Notes under the pieces: generated by a model
Told to the model about the DNA's origin: nothing
What the model saw: the letters and a program-made list of their open reading frames with translations, nothing else
The model's database searches: none
Position numbers and translations under genes: made by a program
Part shown: piece by piece, positions 2,366 through 60,421 of the stretch
How positions within the stretch are numbered: the first letter of the stretch is position 1
Layout: each line of letters starts with the position of its first letter
Source: Archivesica marissinica
Lineage: Eukaryota; Mollusca; Bivalvia; Venerida; Vesicomyidae
Assembly (NCBI GenBank): GCA_014843695.1
Contig: CM026386.1
Coordinates: forward strand, 10,729,814 to 10,793,813
Direction of reading: 5' to 3'
Length of the DNA stretch: 64,000 nucleotides

Positions 2366-2410
2366 ATTAAGCTTGTTCACTTTCCTTGTTTGTTGGTTTT
2401 GTTGCATCAT

Positions 2411-2585
2411 GACTTACCTTGACGAGGGTCTGCTACGGTTAATCAGGACTTACCTTGACGAGGGTCTGCTACGGTTAATCAGGACTTACCTTGATGAGGG
2501 TCTGCTACGGTTAATCAGGACTTACCTTGACGAGGGTCTGCTACGGTTAATCAGGACTTACCTTGACGAGGGTCTGCTACGGTTA
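2411..2585. repeat. 36-bp tandem array carrying five copies of the exon-12 donor
   Basis: Copies start at 2411, 2447, 2483, 2519 and 2555. In transcript sense each contains CGTAGCAGACCCTCGTCAAG|GT, then AAGTC. The copy touching the exon supplies the real donor at 2561/2560. The other four lie in the intron. Confidence 0.95.
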
Positions 2586-2680
2586 TGATGGGCCTGTGGT
2601 CCTGGCGTATTTCTAGGGGTCAACACATCGGGTTCATTGGCACTAATTAAATGCTGGTGTAGAATTTTGGTAGCTCCATC
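2562..2680 (-). CDS. CLASP: CLASP exon 12, end of TOG3 into linker; donor is tandemly repeated
   Basis: The acceptor is GTTTGTAG|GATGGAG and the chosen donor TCAAG|GTAAGT (phase 2). It encodes DGATKILHQHLISANEPDVL, TPRNTPGPQA and HHNRSRPSS. This aligns to human DGATKLLHNHLKNSSNTSVG and the following Ser/Arg/Pro linker. The donor and about 30 bases before it occur five times in tandem at a 36-bp period. Only the first donor keeps the frame open, because TCA-AGG is followed directly by TAA. I therefore ended the exon there. Confidence 0.95.
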
Positions 2681-3846: not shown

Positions 3847-4128
3847 ACGGATCTGTAGTCCAGTGGTAACACGCTGGACTGGTAACCCAGGCTCAATCCC
3901 CCGTCTGACCCTAATAAAATTAACAGTCATTCAGATGGGACTTTAAACTGAGGTCTCGTGTCGGTGCTTTACACCGTGCACATAAAAGAACCAGAGGAGA
4001 CTCTGGAATGGGTCTCTGTCTGTATTATTGCACTATCCTCCAAAAATCTAAAATGACTAATCTCTTCAGGAGGTGTCGCTCATATGGGCAACCGGTAGCG
4101 ATGATAAATAAACATTAAACACACACAA
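3847..4128 (+). mobile_element. SINE family A, full length
   Basis: tRNA-like head GGATCTGTAGTCCAGTGGTA with B box-like GGCTCAATCCC. The shared body (GAGGTCTCGTGTCGGTGCTT) and the A-rich/CA tail follow. It lies antisense to the gene in intron 11. Confidence 0.88.
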
Positions 4129-4225: not shown

Positions 4226-4312
4226 CTGGAATGTTTTAGGTAACCCAGCTAGCATCATAGACAATTCTGAGGGATTGAGGTTGAACAGAGCAAACAACAC
4301 GGACTGGGCGGA
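4226..4312 (-). CDS. CLASP: CLASP exon 11, end of TOG3; its acceptor founds a giant array
   Basis: The acceptor is TTATTACAG|TCCGCCC and the donor TTCCAG|GTAAGA; phase 0, 29 codons. It encodes SAQSVLFALFNLNPSELSMM, then LAGLPKTFQ, aligning to human AAQSVLISLFELNTPEFTML and LGALPKTFQ. The acceptor and the first six or so exon bases are the same sequence that recurs about 85 times in the adjoining intron. Array acceptors used two or more units away would bring an in-frame TAA before the exon. Confidence 0.96.
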
Positions 4313-7300
4313 CTGTAATAACAAGGGCAAATAAATATATATTACACTGCCACGCAGACTGTAATAACAAGGGCAAATAAATATATATTACACTGCCACG
4401 CAGACTGTAATAACAAGGGCAAATAAATATATATTACACTGCCACGCAGACTGTAATAACAAGGGCAAATAAATATATATTACACTGCCACGCAGACTGT
4501 AATAACAAGGGCAAATAAATATATATTACACTGCCACGCAGACTGTAATAACAAGGGCAAATAAATATATATTACACTGCCACGCAGACTGTAATAACAA
4601 GGGCAAATAAATATATATTACACTGCCACGCAGACTGTAATAACAAGGGCAAATAAATATATATTACACTGCCACGCAGACTGTAATAACAAGGGCAAAT
4701 AAATATATATTACACTGCCACGCAGACTGTAATAACAAGGGCAAATAAATATATATTACACTGCCACGCAGACTGTAATAACAAGGGCAAATAAATATAT
4801 ATTACACTGCCACGCAGACTGTAATAACAAGAAGAAATAAATATATATTACACTGCCACGCAGACTGTAATAACAAGGGCAAATAAATATATATTACACT
4901 GCCACGCGGACTGTAATAACAAGAAGAAATAAATATATATTACACTGCCACGCAGACTGTAATAACAAGAAGAAATAAATATATATTACACTGCCACGCA
5001 GACTGTAATAACAAGAAGAAATAAATATATATTACACTGCCACGCGGACTGTAATAACAAGAAGAAATAAATATATATTACACTGCCACGCAGACTGTAA
5101 TAACAAGAAATAAATATATATTACACTGCCACGCGGACTGTAATAACAAGAAGAAATAAATATATATTACACTGCCACGCGGACTGTAATAACAAGAAGA
5201 AATAAATATATATTACACTGCCACGCAGACTGTAATAACAAGAAATAAATATATATTACACTGCCACGCGGACTGTAATAACAAGAAGAAATAAATATAT
5301 ATTACACTGCCACGCGGACTGTAATAACAAGGGCAAATAAATATATATTACACTGCCACGCAGACTGTAATAACAAGAAATAAATATATATTACACTGCC
5401 ACGCAGACTGTAATAACAAGAAATAAATATATATTACACTGCCACGCGGACTGTAATAACAAGAAATAAATATATATTACACTGCCACGCGGACTGTAAT
5501 AACAAGAAATAAATATATATTACACTGCCACGCGGACTGTAATAACAAGAAATAAATATATATTACACTGCCGGGCGGACTGTAATAACAAGAAATAAAT
5601 ATATATTACACTGCCACGCAGACTGTAATAACAAGAAATAAATATATATTACACTGCCACGCAGACTGTAATAACAAGGGCAAATAAATATATATTACAC
5701 TGCCAAGCGGACTGTAATAACAAGGGCAAATAAATATATATTACACTGCCACGCGGACTGTAATAACAAGAAATAAATATATATTACACTGCCACGCGGA
5801 CTGTAATAACAAGAAATAAATATATATTACACTGCCGCGCGGACTGTAATAACAAGAAATAAATATATATTACACTGCCACGCAGACTGTAATAACAAGA
5901 AATAAATATATATTACACTGCCACGCGGACTGTAATAACAAGAAATAAATATATATTACACTGCCACGCGGACTGTAATAACAAGAAATAAATATATATT
6001 ACACTGCCACGCAGACTGTAATAACAAGAAATAAATATATATTACACTGCCACGCGGACTGTAATAACAAGAAGAAATAAATATATATTACACTGCCACG
6101 CGGACTGTAATAACAAGAAGAAATAAATATATATTACACTGCCACGCAGACTGTAATAACAAGAAATAAATATATATTACACTGCCACGCGGACTGTAAT
6201 AACAAGAAGAAATAAATATATATTACACTGCCACGCGGACTGTAATAACAAGGGCAAATAAATATATATTACACTGCCACGCAGACTGTAATAACAAGAA
6301 ATAAATATATATTACACTGCCACGCAGACTGTAATAACAAGAAATAAATATATATTACACTGCCACGCGGACTGTAATAACAAGAAATAAATATATATTA
6401 CACTGCCACGCGGACTGTAATAACAAGAAATAAATATATATTACACTGCCACGCGGACTGTAATAACAAGAAATAAATATATATTACACTGCCGGGCGGA
6501 CTGTAATAACAAGAAATAAATATATATTACACTGCCACGCAGACTGTAATAACAAGAAATAAATATATATTACACTGCCACGCAGACTGTAATAACAAGG
6601 GCAAATAAATATATATTACACTGCCAAGCGGACTGTAATAACAAGGGCAAATAAATATATATTACACTGCCACGCGGACTGTAATAACAAGAAATAAATA
6701 TATATTACACTGCCACGCGGACTGTAATAACAAGAAATAAATATATATTACACTGCCGGGCGGACTGTAATAACAAGAAATAAATATATATTACACTGCC
6801 ACGCAGACTGTAATAACAAGAAATAAATATATATTACACTGCCACGCAGACTGTAATAACAAGGGCAAATAAATATATATTACACTGCCAAGCGGACTGT
6901 AATAACAAGGGCAAATAAATATATATTACACTGCCACGCGGACTGTAATAACAAGAAATAAATATATATTACACTGCCACGCGGACTGTAATAACAAGAA
7001 ATAAATATATATTACACTGCCACGCGGACTGTAATAACAAGAAATAAATATATATTACACTGCCACGCGGACTGTAATAACAAGAAATAAATATATATTA
7101 CACTGCCACGCGGACTGTAATAACAAGAAATAAATATATATTACACTGCCGGGCGGACTGTAATAACAAGAAATAAATATATATTACACTGCCACGCAGA
7201 CTGTAATAACAAGAAATAAATATATATTACACTGCCACGCAGACTGTAATAACAAGGGCAAATAAATATATATTACACTGCCAAGCGGACTGTAATAACA

Positions 7301-8118
7301 AGGGCAAATAAATATATATTACACTGCCACGCGGACTGTAATAACAAGAAATAAATATATATTACACTGCCACGCGGACTGTAATAACAAGAAATAAATA
7401 TATATTACACTGCCACGCGGACTGTAATAACAAGGGCAAATAAATATATATTACACTGCCACGCGGACTGTAATAACAAGAAATAAATATATATTACACT
7501 GCCACGCGGACTGTAATAACAAGAAATAAATATATATTACACTGCCGGGCGGACTGTAATAACAAGAAATAAATATATATTACACTGCCATGCAGACTGT
7601 AATAACAAGGGCAAATAAATATATATTACACTGCCATGCAGACTGTAATAACAAGGGCAAATAAATATATATTACACTGCCACGCGGACTGTAATAACAA
7701 GAAATAAATATATATTACACTGCCAAGCGGACTGTAATAACAAGAAATAAATATATATTACACTGCCACGCGGACTGTAATAACAAGGGCAAATAAATAT
7801 ATATTACCCTGCCACGCGGATTGTAATAACAAGAAATAAATATATATTACACTGCCACGCAGACTGTAATAACAAGAAATAAATATATATTACACTGCCG
7901 GGCGGACTGTAATAACAAGAAATAAATATATATTACACTGCCACGCGGACTGTAATAACAAGAAATAAATATATATTACACTGCCACGCGGACTGTAATA
8001 ACAAGAAATAAATATATATTACACTGCCACGCAGACTGTAATAACAAGAAATAAATATATATTACACTGCCACGCGGACTGTAATAACAAGAAGAAATAA
8101 ATATATATTACACTGCCA
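4311..8118. repeat. 43/46-bp satellite, about 85 copies of the exon-11 3' splice site
   Basis: Unit GACTGTAATAACAAG + AAATAAATATATATTACACT + GCCACGCG; variants insert GGC or GAA after AACAAG (46 bp). In transcript sense every copy reads TTTCTTGTTATTACAG|TCCG, the exon-11 acceptor with its first bases. The array abuts the exon with no spacer. Some units read TCCGCCCGGC, even closer to the exon start TCCGCCCAG. Internal order repeats indicate block duplications. Confidence 0.97.
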
Positions 8119-8389
8119 CTTTGGTCACTATTGTAGCAGTTTCAATCCGGTGCACAGGAGGAGTTCCAATATTGATGTTTGTATTTAAATAAGGTACCGA
8201 ACGACTTGCATGTGTAATTGCACCATTAAAAGTTGTTTGAAGCCATGTTTCTAAAACAACACCTTGTACAAAGTGTCAAGATGCCCGAGGACGCGCGAGA
8301 TTGGGAACAGCTAGGTGGCCAGGTATTCGCGCTTAAACAAACATAAAAGGAGGTACGAGTCAGTGGACTTTATGGATTGAAATACAGTC

Positions 8390-8565
8390 AACTATATGTC
8401 AAATTCAGTCGGACCGAACAACATACTTCGACATAACCGAAGCTTGAAATAACGAAATTCGATATAAACGGAGCCAGTTATATGTAACATGATAGTGTCT
8501 GAAATGGGACTTTGATTCGACTTCGAGATAACCGGAGAATTCGACTTAATAGATGTAGAATGTAA
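8390..8565. mobile_element. MITE-like element P8
   Basis: Shares ATTCAGTCGGACCGAACAA, GATATAAACG and AGCCAGTTATATGTAA with 12.47-12.68 kb. Its ends are not clear by eye. Confidence 0.55.
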
Positions 8566-8577
8566 CTTGAAATTTTT

Positions 8578-8670
8578 TTTTTTTTGTATTCGAATACCGA
8601 AATATGATTCGAATACCGAAATAGGATTCGAATACCGAAATAGGATTCGAATATTCGGTCAGATATTCGG
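8578..8670. repeat. Short imperfect repeat of GATTCGAATACCGAAATA
   Basis: Three to four copies of an 18-19 bp unit after a T-rich tract, ending in ATTCGAATATTCGGTC. The sequence resembles the inside of the P9 element at 13.3 kb. Confidence 0.6.
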
Positions 8671-8711
8671 TCCAATCCCCATATAAATATATCACAATAG
8701 CAGCTACATAC

Positions 8712-8855
8712 CTTTCTTACTTCCACGCTCTTTGGTTCGTTTGTCCACGTTATAATACGCGAGATAACAAGCCTAGTATCCCCGGAGTTGGCGAAGTCGG
8801 CAGGATCCATGCACGTAACCAACGTGTTCAAGTAATTCAACATTGCCAGCTTTAC
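8712..8855 (-). CDS. CLASP: CLASP exon 10, TOG3
   Basis: The acceptor is GATTGCAG|GTAAAGC and the donor AGAAAG|GTATGT; phase 0 at both ends, 48 codons. It encodes VKLAMLNYLNTLVTCMDPAD, FANSGDTRLVISRIITWTNE and PKSVEVRK. The human counterpart is VKVAILKYIETLAKQMDPGD followed by SETRLAVSRVITWTTEPKSSDVRK in shorter blocks. This is clear TOG3 HEAT sequence. Confidence 0.97.
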
Positions 8856-19073: not shown

Positions 19074-19952
19074 CCTTCATAGAGATTTAGGTTAATATAC
19101 TATTATATCTCCATACAAACGACAGCCATTTAGCAATCATGCAGTGGATATGTAGTCGCCATATCTATCCCACCTCCATAGATATTACTGGGACTACATG
19201 AGATTCTGGCCTTTATTATGAATATTGGTTTGGCTACTACATTGTTAATGTATGTTGTATTGGTAATGGCTTCAAGAGGTGCTTCTATGAGGGAAAGGGT
19301 TTATGAACATTGGTTTGGCTACTACATTGTTAATGTATGTCACATTGGTAATGGCGTCAAGAGGAGCTTCTATGAGGGAAAGGGTTTATGAACATTGGTT
19401 TGCTACTACATTGTTAATGTATGTCGTATTGGTAATGGCGTCAAGAGGTGCTTCTATGAGGGAAAAGGTTTATGAACATTGGTTTGGCTACTACATTGTC
19501 AATGTATGTCATATTGGTAATGGCGTCAAGAGGAGCTTCCATGAGGGAAAGGGTTAATGTATGTCGTATTGGTAATGGCGTCAAGAGGAGCTTCTATGAG
19601 GGAAAGGGTTTATGAACATTGGTTTGGCTACTACATTGTTAATGTATGTCACATTGGTAATGGCGTCAAGAGGTGCTTCTATGAGGGAAAGGGTTTATGA
19701 ACATTGGTTTGGCTACTACATTGTTAATGTATGTCACATTGGTAATGGCGTCAAGAGGAGCTTCTATGAGGGAAAGTGTTTATGAACATTGGTTTGGCTA
19801 CTACATTGTTAATGTATGTCGTATTGGTAATGGTGTCAATAGGTGCTTCTATGAGGGAAAGGGTTTATGAACATTGGTTTGGCTACTACATTGTTAATGT
19901 ATGTCGTATTGGTAATGGTGTCAATAGGTGCTTCTATGAGGGAATGGGTTAA
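19074..19952. mobile_element. TTAA MITE family P4 whose right half is amplified (85 bp, about 9 copies)
   Basis: Begins TTAACCCTTTCCTTCATAGA and ends GAGGGAATGGGTTAA. The left half (GTAGTCGCCATATC, CATAGATATTACTGGG) is single. The right half, unit ATGAACATTGGTTTGGCTAC ... CTTCTATGAGGGAAAGGGTT, is tandemly repeated. One copy is truncated near 19557. Confidence 0.88.
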
Positions 19953-22145: not shown

Positions 22146-22293
22146 CTGCAATATATAAGAATGTCTAATGTTAGTAACAGTCACCTTGCCTCTTACATTC
22201 TGTCAAAATATGATGATCACTTGTTATTTGACTATCTTTCCATGTTTGGGCAGCAGATTGTGTTATTTTACCAGTCAAAAACTACAGACTTGT

Positions 22294-25200
22294 GCATGGC
22301 GAGGTATAAACATGGGAGGTATAAACATGGGAGGTATAAACATGGCGAGGTATAAACATGGCGAGGTATAAACATGGCGAGGTATAAACATGGCGAGGTA
22401 TAAACATGGCGAGGTATAAACATGGCGAGGTATAAACATGGCGAGGTATAAACATGGCGAGGTATAAACATGGCGAGGTATAAACATGGCGAGGTATAAA
22501 CATGGCGAGGTATAAACATGGCGAGGTATAAACATGGCGAGGTATAAACATGGCGCGGTATAAACATGGCGAGGTATAAACATGGCGAGGATAAACATGG
22601 CAGGTATAACATGGGGTATAAACATGGCGGGATAAAATGCCGGTATAAACAAAACACGTATAAACATGGCGAGGTATAAACATGGCGAGGTATGAACATG
22701 GCGAGGTATAAACATGGCACGGTATAAACATGGCGAAGTATAAACATGGCGACGAGGTATAAACATGGCGAGGTATGAACATGGCGAGGTATAAACATGG
22801 TGAGGTATAAACATGGCGCGGTATAAACATGGGGCGGTATAAACATGGCGAGGTATAAACATGGCGAGGTATAAACATGGCGCGGTATAAACATGGCGCG
22901 GTATAAACATGGCGAGGTATAAACATGGCGAGGTATAAACATGGCGAGGTATAAACATGGCGAGGTATAAACATGGCGAGGTATGAACATGGCGCGGTAT
23001 AAACATGGCGGGTAAACATGGGCGGTATAAACATGGGGCGGTATAAACATGGCACAGTATAAACATGGCGAGGTATAAACATGGCGAGGTATGAACATGG
23101 CGAGGTATAAACATGGCACGGTATAAACATGGCGAGTATAAACATGGCGACGAGGTATAAACATGGCGAGGTATGAACATGGCGAGGTATAAACATGGTG
23201 AGGTATAAACATGGCGCGGTATAAACATGGCGAGGTATAAACATGGTGAGGTATGAATATGGGGCGGTATAAACATGGCGTGGTATAAACATGGTGAGGT
23301 ATAAACATGGTGCGGAATAAACATGGCACGGTATACACATGGCGAGGTATAAACATGGCGCGGTATAAACATGGCACGGTATAAACATGACGAGGTATGA
23401 ACATGGCGAGGTATGAACATGGCGAGGTATAAACATGGCGAGGTATAAACATGGCGCGGAATAAACATGGCGAGGTATAAACATGGCACGGTATAAACAT
23501 GGCGAGGTATAAACATGACAAGGTATAAACATGGCACGGTATGAACATGGCGAGGTATAAACATGACACGGTATAAACATGGCACGGTATGAACATGGCG
23601 AGGTATAAACATGGCGAGGTATAAACATGGCACGGCATAAACATGGCGAGGTATAAACATGACAAGGTATAAACATGGCAAGGTATGAACATGGCGAGGT
23701 ATGAACATGGCAAGGTATGAACATGGCACGGTATAAACATGGCGAGGTATGAACATGGCGAGATATGAACATGGCGAGGTATGAACATGGCGAGGTATAA
23801 ACATGGAGAGGTATAAACATGGCGCGGTATAAACATGGCACGGTATGAACATGGCGAGGTATGAACATGGTGAGGTATGAACATGGCACGGTATAAACAT
23901 GGCGAGGTATAAACATGGCACGGTATAAACATGGCAAGGTATAAACATGGCGAGGTATAAACATGGTGAGGTATAAACATGGCGCGGCATAAACATGGGA
24001 GGTATAAACATGGGCGGTAAAACATGGCTCGTATAAACATGGCCGGTATAAACATGGCACGGTATGAACATGGCGAGGTATAAACATGGCGAGGTATAAA
24101 CATGGCGAGGTATGAACATGGCGAGGTATAAACATGGCGCGGTATAAACATGGCGCGGTATAAACATGGGGCGGTATAAACATGGCACAGTATAAACATG
24201 GCGAGGTATAAACATGGCGAGGTATGAACATGGCGAGGTATAAACATGGCACGGTATAAACATGGCGAAGTATAAACATGGCGACGAGGTATAAACATGG
24301 CGAGGTATGAACATGGCGAGGTATAAACATGGTGAGGTATAAACATGGCGCGGTATAAACATGGGGCGGTATAAACATGGCACGGTATAAACATGGCGAG
24401 GTATAAACATGGCGAGGTATGAACATGGCGAGGTATAAACATGGCACGGTATAAACATGGCGAGGTATAAACATGGCGACGAGGTATAAACATGGCGAGG
24501 TATAAATATGGCGAAGTATAAACATGGCACGGTATAAACATGGCGAGGTATAAACATGGCGAGGTATAAACATGGTGAGGTATGAATATGGGGCGGTATA
24601 AACATGGCGTGGTATAAACATGGTGAGGTATAAACATGGTGCGGAATAAACATGGCACGGTATACACATGGCGAGGTATAAACATGGCGCGGTATAAACA
24701 TGGCACGGTATAAACATGACGAGGTATGAACATGGCGAGGTATTAACATGGCGAGGTATAAACATGGCGAGGTATAAACATGGTGCGGAATAAACATGGC
24801 GAGGTATAAACATGGCACGGTATAAACATGGCGAGGTATAAACATGACAAGGTATAAACATGGCACGGTATGAACATGGCGAGGTATAAACATGACACGG
24901 TATAAACATGGCACGGTATGAACATGGCGAGGTATAAACATGGCGAGGTATAAACATGGCGAGGTATAAACATGGCACGGCATAAACATGGCGAGGTATA
25001 AACATGACAAGGTATAAACATGGCAAGGTATAAACATGGCGAGGTATGAACATGGCGAGGTATGAACATGGCAAGGTATGAACATGGCACGGTATAAACA
25101 TGGCGAGGTATGAACATGGCGAGATATGAACATGGCGAGGTATGAACATGGCGAGGTATAAACATGGAGAGGTATAAACATGGCGCGGTATAAACATGGC

Positions 25201-27105
25201 ACGGTATGAACATGGCGAGGTATGAACATGGTGAGGTATGAACATGGCGAGGTATAAACATGGCACGGTATAAACATGGCAAGGTATAAACATGGCGAGG
25301 TATAAACATGGCGAGGTATAAACATGGCGCGGCATAAACATGGAGGTATAAACATGGCGCGGCATAAACATGGCTCGGTATAAACATGGCACGGTATAAA
25401 CATGGCACGGTATGAACATGGCGAGGTATAAACATGGCGAGGTATAAACATGGCGAGGTATGAACATGGCGCGGTATAAACATGGCGCGGTATAAACATG
25501 GCGAGGTATAAACATGGCGAGGTATAAACATGGCGAGGTATAAACATGGCGAGGTATGAACATGGCGAGGTATAAACATGGCACGGTATAAACATGGCGA
25601 AGTATAAACATGGCGACGAGGTATAAACATGGCGAGGTATGAACATGGCGAGGTATAAACATGGTGAGGTATAAACATGGCGCGGTATAAACATGGGGCG
25701 GTATAAACATGGCACGGTATAAACATGGCGAGGTATAAACATGGCGAGGTATAAACATGGCACGGTATAAACATGGCGAGGTATAAACATGGCAAGGTAT
25801 AAACATGGCGAGGTATAAACATGGCGAGGTATAAATATGGCGAAGTATAAACATGGCACGGTATAAACATGGCGAGGTATAAACATGGCGAGGTATAAAC
25901 ATGGTGAGGTATGAATATGGGGCGGTATAAACATGGCGTGGTATAAACATGGTGAGGTATAAACATGGTGCGGAATAAACATGGCACGGTATACACATGG
26001 CGAGGTATAAACATGGCGCGGTATAAACATGGCACGGTATAAACATGACGAGGTATGAACATGGCGAGGTATTAACATGGCGAGGTATAAACATGGCGAG
26101 GTATAAACATGGTGCGGAATAAACATGGCGAGGTATAAACATGGCACGGTATAAACATGGCGAGGTATAAACATGACAAGGTATAAACATGGCACGGTAT
26201 GAACATGGCGAGGTATAAACATGACACGGTATAAACATGGCACGGTATGAACATGGCGAGGTATAAACATGGCGAGGTATAAACATGGCGAGGTATAAAC
26301 ATGGCACGGCATAAACATGGCGAGGTATAAACATGACAAGGTATAAACATGGCAAGGTATGAACATGGCGAGGTATGAACATGGCAAGGTATGAACATGG
26401 CACGGTATAAACATGGCGAGGTATGAACATGGCGAGGTATGAACATGGCGAGGTATGAACATGGCGAGGTATAAACATGGAGAGGTATAAACATGGCGCG
26501 GTATAAACATGGCACGGTATGAACATGGCGAGGTATGAACATGGTGAGGTATGAACATGGCACGGTATAAACATGGCGAGGTATAAACATGGCACGGTAT
26601 AAACATGGCAAGGTATAAACATGGCGAGGTATAAACATGGTGAGGTATAAACATGGCGCGGCATAAACATGGTGAGGTATAAACATGGCGCGGTATAAAC
26701 ATGGCGCGGTATAAACATGGCTCGGTATAAACATGGCACGGTATGAACATGGCGAAGTATAAACATGGCTCGGTATAAACATGGCGCGGTATAAACATGG
26801 CTCGGTATAAACATGGCACGGTATAAACATGGCACGGTATGAACATGGCGAAGTATAAACATGGCGAGGTATAAACATGGCGAGGTATAAACATGGCGCG
26901 GTATAAACATGGCGCGGTATAAACATGGCTCGTATAAACATGGCACGGTATAAACATGGCACGGTATGAACATGGCGCGGTATAAACATGGCGAGGTATG
27001 AACATGGTGAGGCATAAACATGGCGAGTTATAAACATGGCAAGGTATAAACATGGCGAGGTATAAACATGGCACGGTATGAACATGGCGAGGTATAAACA
27101 TGGCA
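22294..27105. repeat. 16-bp satellite, about 300 copies, filling intron 7
   Basis: Unit GGTATAAACATGGCGA with sparse variants (CGCGG, CACGG, TGAGG, TATGAAC). Because 16 is not a multiple of 3 and the minus strand lacks stops, all three minus frames stay open for kilobases. Marker blocks such as GGCACGGTATACACATGG recur at about 23.33, 24.66 and 25.98 kb, indicating a higher-order unit of about 1.33 kb present three times. Confidence 0.97.
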
Positions 27106-27179
27106 TACAGATTTGACATAACTTTAATTATGCATGCTCATTATTTGAAGCGTATTTGAATCCTGGAAAGAATACTTAC

Positions 27180-28356: not shown

Positions 28357-28460
28357 GTTAAAAATCTGTTTTGTCGAAGTAATTTCTGCAAACTAACAAC
28401 ACCTTCCTTTCTATCTTGATAGGAGCTACTCTGTAACAAGGCAAGAATTTCTCCCATATC
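28357..28460 (-). CDS. CLASP: CLASP exon 6, start of TOG3
   Basis: The acceptor is ACATTGCAG|GATATG and the donor TTTAAC|GTAAGT (phase 2). It encodes DMGEILALLQSSSYQDRKEG, then VVSLQKLLRQNRFL. This aligns with human DVAEVLNRCASSNWSERKEG and LLGLQNLLKNQRTL, the first HEAT repeat of TOG3. A perfect TTCTAAT branch-point consensus sits 25 nt upstream of the acceptor and is repeated five times in the intron. The exon is 104 bp. Confidence 0.96.
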
Positions 28461-28470
28461 CTGCAATGTA

Positions 28471-28620
28471 GAACGAATGCAACATTAGAATGTGGCTACC
28501 ATGCAACATTAGAACATGGATACCATGGCTACCATGCAACATTAGAACATGTCTACCATGCAACATTAGAACATGACTATCGTGGCTACCATGCAACATT
28601 AGAACGTGGCTACCATGGTT
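28471..28620. repeat. Array of five branch-point-like motifs upstream of exon 6
   Basis: ATGCAACATTAGAA occurs five times with variable spacers (ACATGGATACC, ACATGTCTACC and similar). In transcript sense each reads TTCTAATGTTGCAT, where TTCTAAT fits the branch-point consensus TNCTRAY. The nearest copy puts the branch A 25 nt from the exon-6 acceptor. Confidence 0.85.
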
Positions 28621-28972
28621 ACACATCACTGTAAAGTTTGTATACTGGTATATAACACATCGAAATCAAAATGTACACAAAATAATTAACACAGATTTCA
28701 TGCAAACTGGACAATAAGATGAATAATTTTCAGGGTGCATCGCAAAACTGTTGTAACTGTATATAGCTAAAGAAGGCGATACAACAGTTTCCCAGTGCAT
28801 CCTCCGCACGATTGCATTATATGACAGGGCAAATCATGGTGCGTTTGTAAGCACATATTTTCGTGATTCATAGCGAGCGTTTCGTTCATTCACCGAAGAT
28901 TATTTGCTGGTATTGGACTAACTAACATATGAAACCATGTCCTATGAGATCCCATTTTTACATTAACTACAG
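28621..28972. other. Intron 5 stretch without recognised feature
   Basis: Unique sequence. A short palindromic pair, CAAAACTGTTGTAACTGTAT / ATACAACAGTTTC, lies near 28.74-28.79 kb. Confidence 0.5.
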
Positions 28973-34082: not shown

Positions 34083-34694
34083 TTCAGCAAGGGAGAATCG
34101 TTTCAATCCAAACACATGCTTTCAAGTCTGAATTGTTCGCGTTATTTTTTTGATTGGCATCGCATCAACATCTAATTTTGTAGACTGGGATGACTTTACA
34201 ATGAATTTATTTCTCATGCAATCTGCTCTCAAACTTCCATCTGTTATCCGGGGCCGAGTTTTCATGTCTTATGTTTATTTATAGATACTATTCACAGCGA
34301 CTGGGCTCCAAGTTTGACCACAGTGCCGAGACACTGCTACCAAACCTGATCAATCTTATTCCAAATAGTGCCAAAATAATGTCCACATCGGGCATGGTGT
34401 GCACCCGTTTCATCTTACAGGTAAGTACGGTCTCATATTTTATAAACAATACGTTCCCAGTGATTTGCAAGAATTTTACAACTGTGACTTGATAGCATGG
34501 CTGCTGAGTGTTTAACGCTTAAAATGCTGAATAAATTGAAAGGAATGTGCAAGCAACAGAGATCCAGATCAGACAGATCAGATTACAATGCCGTCCATCA
34601 GCAAGTGAGCGTCGCTTCAATCCTAACACATGCTTTCAAGTCTGAATTGTTCGCGTTATTTTTTTGATTAGCATCGAATCAACACCTAATTTTG
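34083..34694. repeat. Direct repeat of about 98 bp flanking the inverted TOG2 exon
   Basis: Copy 1 at about 34083-34180, copy 2 at about 34598-34694, same orientation, offset 515 bp. Shared landmarks are TCAGCAAG, ACACATGCTTTCAAGTCTGA and TTGTTCGCGTTATTTTTTTG. The exon lies between them. A smaller repeat, GTAGACTGGGATGACTT, occurs at about 34070 and 34180. Confidence 0.88.
34285..34420 (+). CDS. Orphan CLASP TOG2 exon in inverted orientation
   Basis: On the plus strand, inside intron 5 of the minus-strand CLASP, an acceptor TTTATTTATAG|ATAC and donor TTACAG|GTAAGTAC enclose one base plus 45 codons. The translation contains RLGSKFDHSAETLLPNLINL, IPNSAKIMSTSG and a final TRFILQ. This is the TOG2 segment of human CLASPs (LGNKFDHGAEAIVPTLFNL, VPNSAKVMATSG, RFIIR). 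The frame is intact and both splice signals are good. No neighbouring TOG2 exon is seen on either side, so alone it cannot make protein. It may be a duplicated or inverted gene fragment or the result of assembly error. Confidence 0.85.
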
Positions 34695-50335: not shown

Positions 50336-50577
50336 ATTTATCAATACAAGGAACACAAACACTTGTGTTAGGCTTGATTCCTGACGTTCTCTGTAACAGC
50401 TCTAGATTATGTGTAGAAGGGGAACAAAATGTTATGTAAAAGATCACATTTTTAGTATTGATTTTTTTTTTTTAATACTCAAAAATGTTGTTCATTTTAA
50501 GTTCAAATTCAAATTATTACAAAATAGAAATGAAAATATGATGAAAGGTTGATGCAAGAGTTCAAAAGGATATTTAC

Positions 50578-51397
50578 CATTTGTATTTGTATCGTTATTA
50601 TTATCAACATCATCATCGCACCACCAATCAAATTCATGTTCTATATCGGATACCCTTGGCACTTCAACCACATATGGAAATATTGCAAAATGAACAGATT
50701 TCGCTTTGGTTGTTGGCGTTATCACGGAATTGTCATTTTCATCCATTTTCCTGTGACAAACATTGTCAAGTTCTAATACAGATGGTCGAAGAGATCCATC
50801 ATTAATTGTTTTAGATATATTGCACAATTCGGAGGAGTCATTAATTAACTGTTTTCTATCTATACTAAGTTCATCAGTCACCAGATGATCACTTGCTTTC
50901 CAACGAGTGAGTGAATCAAAGTGAGATGTGAAGGCACAAGGTGAAAGTAATACTATATCTCCCTCAGAAGAAACGCTGAACTCTGAGTCACATGCACGAA
51001 CGCTGTCATTATTATTTAAAACCGATTGATAAGCTTCTTCAAAATCATCAAAAATATCATCAAGGTCTCCAAGCCCTTCGTCGTAATCATCATCTACCGC
51101 AGTTGTATCACTTTTCACATCTAACGCTCGTCTCTTTAATATCCCTACCAACTTCTTCTCCTCACTTGGGTCATGAACGTTATTATTCCCATCATTAAAC
51201 TTATCAGTTAAGTCTTCTATGTCATCAATTACGAGACGAGTTGCATTGTTCACATCCAATTCCTCACAGGAATACAGAACATCATCTATCAGATTGAGGT
51301 TTGCTTGTCCGCTGACAGTCTTATTTAAAGACGTTGATAAATCTGACACAGTTTTCCACGAGTTCACTCCTGCCAGGTTCATTTTCATTGTGCTCAT
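50578..51397 (-). CDS. Candidate first exon of a short CLASP isoform, acidic N-terminus with PP1-docking-like motif
   Basis: An open frame of 273 codons starts at MSTMKMNLAG and ends at a good donor, AATG|GTAAAT, leaving one base (phase 1). That phase fits the acceptor of the 45.3 kb exon exactly, giving a GCA codon. The protein is very acidic, with Asp/Glu runs at residues 103-121 and a DDDVDNNND stretch near 261-269. KSVHF at 233-237 fits the RVxF motif that docks protein phosphatase 1. It is followed by hydrophobic YVVEV, an Arg and WW at 258-259, resembling the RVxF-phi-phi-R-W layout of some PP1 partners. I recognise no homologue. It could be an alternative promoter exon of CLASP or the exon of another gene; the link to CLASP rests on strand, order and phase. 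Confidence 0.6.
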
Positions 51398-60104: not shown

Positions 60105-60421
60105 TGAGACTTCATTGAGATTTAGGTTAATATACTATTATATCTCCATACAAACGACAGCCATTTAGCTATCATGCAGTGGATAAGTAGTCGCCATATC
60201 TATCCCACCTCCATAGATATTACTGGGACTACATAAGATTCTGGCCTTTATTATGAACATTGGTTTGGCTACTACATTGTCAATGTATGTCGTATTGGTA
60301 ATGGCGTCAAGGTGCTTCTATGAGGGAAAGGGTTTATGAACATTGGTTTGGCTACTACATTGTCAATGTATGTCGTATTGGTAATGGCATCAAGAGGTGT
60401 TTCTATGCAGGAAAGGGTTAA
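60105..60421. mobile_element. MITE family P4, nearly unexpanded
   Basis: TTCATTGAGATTTAGGTTAA at the left, GGAAAGGGTTAA at the right, with one left half and two copies of the ATGAACATTGGTTTGGCTAC half. Serves as the reference for the 19 and 40 kb copies. Confidence 0.85.

Follow-up and report, generated by a model that had tools for sequence, protein, structure and literature searches.

A tandem array of 86 splice-junction units in front of a conserved CLASP exon of the bivalve Archivesica marissinica

Introduction

When the 3′ splice site of a gene is repeated in tandem right up to the exon it serves, where did the copies come from, and which of them is used? This question is raised by a 64,000-nucleotide stretch of the Archivesica marissinica genome (contig CM026386.1, positions 10,729,814 to 10,793,813; hereafter the window), for which a preliminary description, made from the sequence alone, had reported a satellite composed of copies of a CLASP acceptor. 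Here we describe the array, weigh the explanations of its origin, consider how the genuine acceptor might be chosen, and compare the locus with known systems.

Results

The CLASP gene in the window

The exons of the gene were placed by homology, and the features needed below are as follows (a slash outside parentheses marks a splice junction).

45311 to 746, minus strand: the 13 CLASP exons placed in the window
8712..8855, minus strand: upstream CLASP exon (exon 10 of the preliminary description), donor AAG/GTATGT
4313..8711, minus strand: intron 10-11, 4399 nt
4226..4312, minus strand: CLASP exon (exon 11 of the preliminary description), 87 nt, phase 0 on both sides, placed by homology
2562..2680, minus strand: next CLASP exon (exon 12 of the preliminary description), 119 nt

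Seven joined CLASP exons found their best match in Mactra antiquata CLASP, which aligned over 100% of the 300 residues at 88% identity. Among the best 120 of 1698 hits the next matches were to Mya arenaria (84%) and Potamilus (76%), and lancelet (Branchiostoma) CLASP reached 53-54%. The exon at 4312-4226, which translates as SAQSVLFALFNLNPSELSMMLAGLPKTFQ, matched both CLASP2 (PDB 3woz, E 0.0013) and Mactra CLASP. It is the tenth of the 13 placed exons, further upstream exons lying outside the window; the AG of its genuine acceptor is at 4313-4314, the introns flanking it measure 4399 and 1545 nt, and skipping of its 87 nt would keep the frame.

An intact-looking CLASP TOG-domain exon (YYSQRLGSKFDHSAETLL...RFILQ) was also observed at 34285-34420 on the plus strand, inverted within a CLASP intron and provided with an acceptor and a GTAAGT donor. 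When the window was searched with Mactra CLASP by tblastn no minus-strand copy of this exon was found, and it may represent either an inverted duplication or an assembly inversion. Outside the CLASP matches, a 301-aa open frame with acidic stretches lies at 50492-51397 (minus strand). At 3850-4120 a tRNA-like head is followed by a tail, which by eye we take to be a SINE.

The acceptor array

4308..8119, minus strand: acceptor array, 86 whole units, each with a 3′ splice site (TRF and cutting at the junction)
4313..4818, minus strand: the 11 exon-proximal units, all identical and 46 bp long when cut after AG

TRF reported a single array at 4308-8119 with 86.0 copies and 95% matches, and when the minus strand was cut at the junction exactly 86 whole units were obtained (48 measuring 43 bp, 38 measuring 46 bp), which fall into 15 sequence types in mixed order. 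Read in transcript sense (8119-4308), the unit has the form GTGG...TTATTACAG/TC(C/T)GC and consists of an AU-rich stretch, a pyrimidine-rich stretch, TTATTACAG (replaced by TTATTACAA in one unit) and five exonic bases, TC(C/T)GC. A few single-base variants aside, the full unit is GTGGCAGTGTAATATATATTTATTT(GCC or CTT or nothing)CTTGTTATTACAG/TC(C/T)GC, the 46-bp form being made up of 41 intronic and 5 exonic nt. Mean pairwise identity of the units was 0.972 with gaps excluded, and variation was confined to positions 1, 2, 8, 26-28, 41 and 44. Of the 14-mer TTGTTATTACAGTC, 85 occurrences were counted on the transcript strand and none on the opposite one; base composition predicts 0.00048 for one strand.

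The last unit of the array is the genuine acceptor, in the 46-bp form TTTGCCCTTGTTATTACAG, together with the first 5 nt of the conserved CLASP exon, and array and exon thus overlap at 4308-4312. Both edges are clean, with GTGG at the start and TCCGC at the end; unique intron lacking TCYGC lies upstream of the first unit and unique exon downstream of the last. Within the intron (8711-4313) the array accounts for 3807 of 4399 nt, or 86.5%. These data bear out the preliminary description, which had claimed about 85 copies of the acceptor, an intron that was about 87% array, and an array touching the exon. Its account of the unit as an acceptor joined to the first exon bases was likewise correct, but the sequence it gave for the genuine site, TTTCTTGTTATTACAG, was not.

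A block of 16 units is present twice, at units 33 and 54 (21 units apart), and ten identical 46-bp units stand in succession directly before the last unit. The internal block duplication suggests turnover of the array, and from the arrangement of unit types the latest expansion was probably at the exon edge.

The decoy acceptors

Upstream of the genuine site the array presents 85 decoy acceptors. The near-identity claimed for them earlier was confirmed, but their number as acceptors required correction, AG being kept in 84 of the 85. From -20 to +3 eight decoys match the true acceptor exactly, and 17 are one base off. Since eight decoys are identical to the true site over this interval, site strength alone cannot explain which acceptor is chosen.

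When the extension produced by each decoy was read in frame, all 85 led to a premature stop, at codon 20 of the extension for 48 decoys and at codon 21 for 36. From the nearest decoy the stop is met at codon 41, inside the exon at 4312-4226, and from decoys at least two units upstream it precedes the exon. That such acceptors would bring a stop ahead of the exon, and that both unit lengths (43 and 46 bp) are 1 mod 3, had been stated in the preliminary description and agrees with our reading. The nearest decoys would give exons of 133, 179 and 225 nt. Across the last acceptor the protein homology with Mactra CLASP is unbroken.

A second junction array and the array landscape

2406..2585, minus strand: donor array, five copies of 36 bp (TRF and junction reading)

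The same gene carries a second array at a splice junction. Each copy consists of the last 24 nt of exon 12 and the first 12 nt of the following intron, and the donor TCAAG/GTAAGT is present in 5/5 copies. Mactra homology (SRPPSR/GPYG) marks the first donor, at 2562, as the real one, and reading past it meets TAA at once. In the acceptor and the donor array alike, the copy that lies closest across the exon is the conserved one.

The window as a whole contains 43 arrays, merged by hand from TRF rows. Tandem arrays make up 38.6% of its length, and their share of the 12 introns between placed exons ranges from 0 to 96%. An array of a 16-bp unit at 22295-27104 (about 301 copies) contains long open frames and occupies 96% of the CLASP intron 22146-27179. 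A unit of 83-85 bp (TTATGAACATTGGTTTGG...) is very similar in the arrays at 19216-19950 and 60251-60419, 40 kb apart, and some of the satellites in the window are therefore dispersed.

In a rotation test, arrays contained 2 of 26 CLASP junctions, where rotations gave a mean of 10.2 (P(<=2) 0.003), and 4 of 26 lay at most 20 bp from an array, where the mean was 10.8 (P(<=4) 0.030). The null is naive in that exons are under coding constraint, and some of the junction positions entered were wrong by 1-2 nt, namely the two ends of the 45-kb exon and the donors of the 42-kb and 28-kb exons. The idea that arrays are drawn to junctions was rejected, the opposite having been seen. Given that arrays contain fewer junctions than the rotations predict, the acceptor and donor arrays stand out as exceptions within a minisatellite-rich region.

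Two further arrays stop short of an acceptor whose sequence they do not clearly repeat: the one at 28465-28622 by 5 bp (acceptor at 28460) and the one at 841-1006 by 17 bp (acceptor at 824). The first contains TTCTAATGTTGCA, the true site being TTCTACATTGCAG, and is perhaps a decayed boundary array.

Discussion

Origin of the array

With a probability of roughly three in four, we read the acceptor array as a minisatellite of the mirage type (see below) that was formed from the gene's own junction and is carried as a tolerated passenger, exon definition ensuring that the last acceptor is mostly used. A 46-bp stretch, comprising 41 nt from the end of the CLASP intron and 5 nt from the start of the exon that follows, would have been tandemly duplicated, and slippage together with unequal exchange would have amplified it to 86 units. 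That the unit arose when the gene's own junction was tandemly duplicated is most likely in view of the whole units, the array edge at the exon and the residues SAQ common with Mactra, and the origin from the true splice site proposed in the preliminary description is the best reading of them.

The five exonic bases of the array encode S-A, and Mactra CLASP at the exon start is VRKSAQSVLFALFNLN, in which S-A is shared and no residue has been gained or lost; because Mactra has the same residues there, an origin from the gene's own junction is indicated. Exon-start residues could be read by pattern in 106 of 120 listed CLASP relatives (14 were unmatched), giving AAQ in 94, SAQ in 5, GAQ in 4 and AAS in 3, so that A is the second residue in 106/106. 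The five relatives with SAQ are Mactra, Nucella lapillus and three others, and the first residue is A in Mya and Potamilus. Because the exon-start residues agree with those of relatives, the exon start is in register with theirs and likely older than the array.

It is unlikely that the array is an artefact produced when the assembler inflated or rearranged a real but shorter one. Such an error could account for the identical 16-unit block found twice and for the ten identical units in a row, and extracts of PMC3087553 say of one amphioxus mirage that in the draft genome it 'appears to be aberrantly assembled'. Against this stand the 15 unit types in mixed order, the clean single edges on both sides and the other long arrays within the same window, and the junction array itself would survive even if it had been inflated.

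We consider it quite improbable that an unrelated intronic minisatellite reached the exon and that its last unit replaced the original acceptor. Since tandem arrays take up 38.6% of the window, and as much as 96% of a single CLASP intron, some are to be expected near exons, and S at the exon start is uncommon (5 of the 106 readable relatives). Such a capture, however, would need to coincide in codon, phase and residues alike, given that the exonic 5 nt of the repeat encode the S-A of Mactra with no residue gained or lost. Nor is there a long copy of the 46-bp unit elsewhere in the 64-kb window, where the longest exact match outside the array was 12 bp and no aligned copy exceeded 13 bp; over this stretch nothing points to a dispersed element such as an introner or a transposon-derived splice site. 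On this evidence the unit is more likely a duplicate of the gene's own junction than a foreign satellite that was captured, the state of the intron before the array being one that we infer.

As to what set off the first duplication, an inverted repeat is a weak candidate. The 7-bp inverted-repeat arms of the unit were reached by 20/500 shuffles of the 46-bp form and by 13/500 of the 43-bp form, and the arms in the donor array are only 3 bp.

Choice of the acceptor

Extracts of PMC9225289 place the limit of intron definition at 200-250 nt, and both introns flanking the exon (4399 and 1545 nt) are longer, so that exon definition is the mode we would expect here. The same extracts report that where introns are longer the site with the shortest distance across the exon has the advantage, and that minigenes offering two identical strong donors were spliced only at the upstream one. 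The direct support given there for exon definition concerns donors, the upstream bias for acceptors in long introns being only 'significantly reduced' and not clearly reversed; when donors were weakened, larger exons were skipped.

With the exon recognised by the spliceosome as a unit, the last acceptor would be used in most transcripts, as it is nearest to the exon's donor and is the sole copy with real exon sequence behind it. Exon definition, on which the preliminary description would have the choice of this site depend, is here the presumed selector. The last acceptor is expected to be dominant with some leakage to the nearest decoys, and since every other choice within the array gives a premature stop, this leakage would feed nonsense-mediated decay. 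The array would then be mostly a tolerated passenger, its copy number under weak selection.

A functional role for the decoys, either in lowering CLASP expression through unproductive splicing or with each decoy hidden in a hairpin formed with the next unit, might be argued from the premature stops that follow from 85/85 decoys and from the predicted folding of the boundary. For the hairpin TATTACA-GT-CTGC-GTG-GCAG-TGTAATA the computed folding energy is -7.3 kcal/mol (-6.9 in the TCCGC forms), compared with -0.3 kcal/mol for the true site followed by its exon. In real context, however, accessibility does not single out the true acceptor. When the region from exon 10 to exon 12 was analyzed by RNAplfold with window sizes of 80, 120 and 200, the true site ranked 86, 24 and 18 of 86 over -3..+1 and 82, 23 and 17 of 86 over -6..+2, and at all three sizes the nearest decoys were more open than the true acceptor. 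The 7-bp inverted repeat is, by the shuffles given above (20 and 13 of 500), mildly unusual. Hairpin occlusion as the selector was rejected, the true site never being the most accessible, and a functional decoy array is highly improbable. Unlikely, too, is the larger proposition that adds, to the choice of the last among 86 near-identical acceptors, a tuning by hypervariable copy number of the CLASP mRNA lost to unproductive splicing and a recurrence of boundary-derived minisatellites in this genome, of which the two junctions in one gene would be a sign.

Significance

The locus suggests that boundary-spanning minisatellites occur outside the lancelets too and, even where they adjoin an exon of a conserved cytoskeletal gene, can reach 86 units. 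As eight decoys are identical to the true site, context is here separated from strength, context meaning exon definition, exon sequence and order of synthesis. The CLASP array is thus a natural test of splice-site choice among near-identical sites, and length variants between individuals would form a natural dose series.

Comparison with known systems

Two of the systems with which the array might be compared differ from it in the junction itself. Intron gain by duplication of a proto-splice site also involves a tandem duplication that copies splice signals, but there AG/GY is duplicated and an intron is gained, whereas the CLASP acceptor array has CAG/TC at the junction and no intron was gained; this class was rejected for that reason. 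The ordinary intronic minisatellites of the genome resemble the array in unit length and can fill an intron almost completely (96% by the 16-bp array), but only 2/26 placed CLASP junctions lie inside an array. In C. elegans an intronic minisatellite has been linked to splicing, though not to junctions, as far as extracts of PMC4039745 go.

The closest likeness is to the "mirages" of amphioxus genes, described in extracts of PMC3087553 and PMC3902484 as tandem repeats across exon-intron boundaries. As in those genes, the CLASP arrays span junctions with units that contain a splice signal (AG in 84/85 decoys, GTAAGT in 5/5 donors), both 5′ and 3′ junctions are affected, and in the acceptor array the inner units are homogenised and the boundary unit is different. 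Among the examples in the extracts of PMC3087553, the amphioxus globin BflGb6 is a 3′ junction mirage like the CLASP acceptor array, and Adh3 data together with globin RT-PCR suggested that regular splicing is undisturbed; those of PMC3902484 extend the list by PGBD5, with imperfect repeats, and name TnC. Mirages are further marked by length instability between haplotypes or cells, and in the single CLASP sequence the internal block duplication suggests turnover. The two sets differ in scale and in setting. The CLASP array has 86 copies of 43/46 bp, compared with 6 and 3 copies in the BflGb6 haplotypes and units of 150-160 bp in BflGb6 and 10-72 bp in Adh3, by the figures in these extracts. 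It includes only 5 exonic nt per unit, and it occurs in a mollusc and not in a lancelet, its gene having bivalve sequences as closest homologues among the best 120 of 1698 hits.

No boundary-spanning minisatellite of a mollusc was found among the titles and abstract openings listed from the open-licence literature. The preliminary description knew of no acceptor-derived satellite of this size; with respect to kind this does not hold, as amphioxus mirages are of the same kind, but with respect to size it does, the array exceeding the copy numbers compared here. The CLASP array is a very large mirage, of a kind already known from amphioxus, and its distinguishing marks are its size of 86 units, the phylum in which it occurs and the presence of a second junction array in the same gene.
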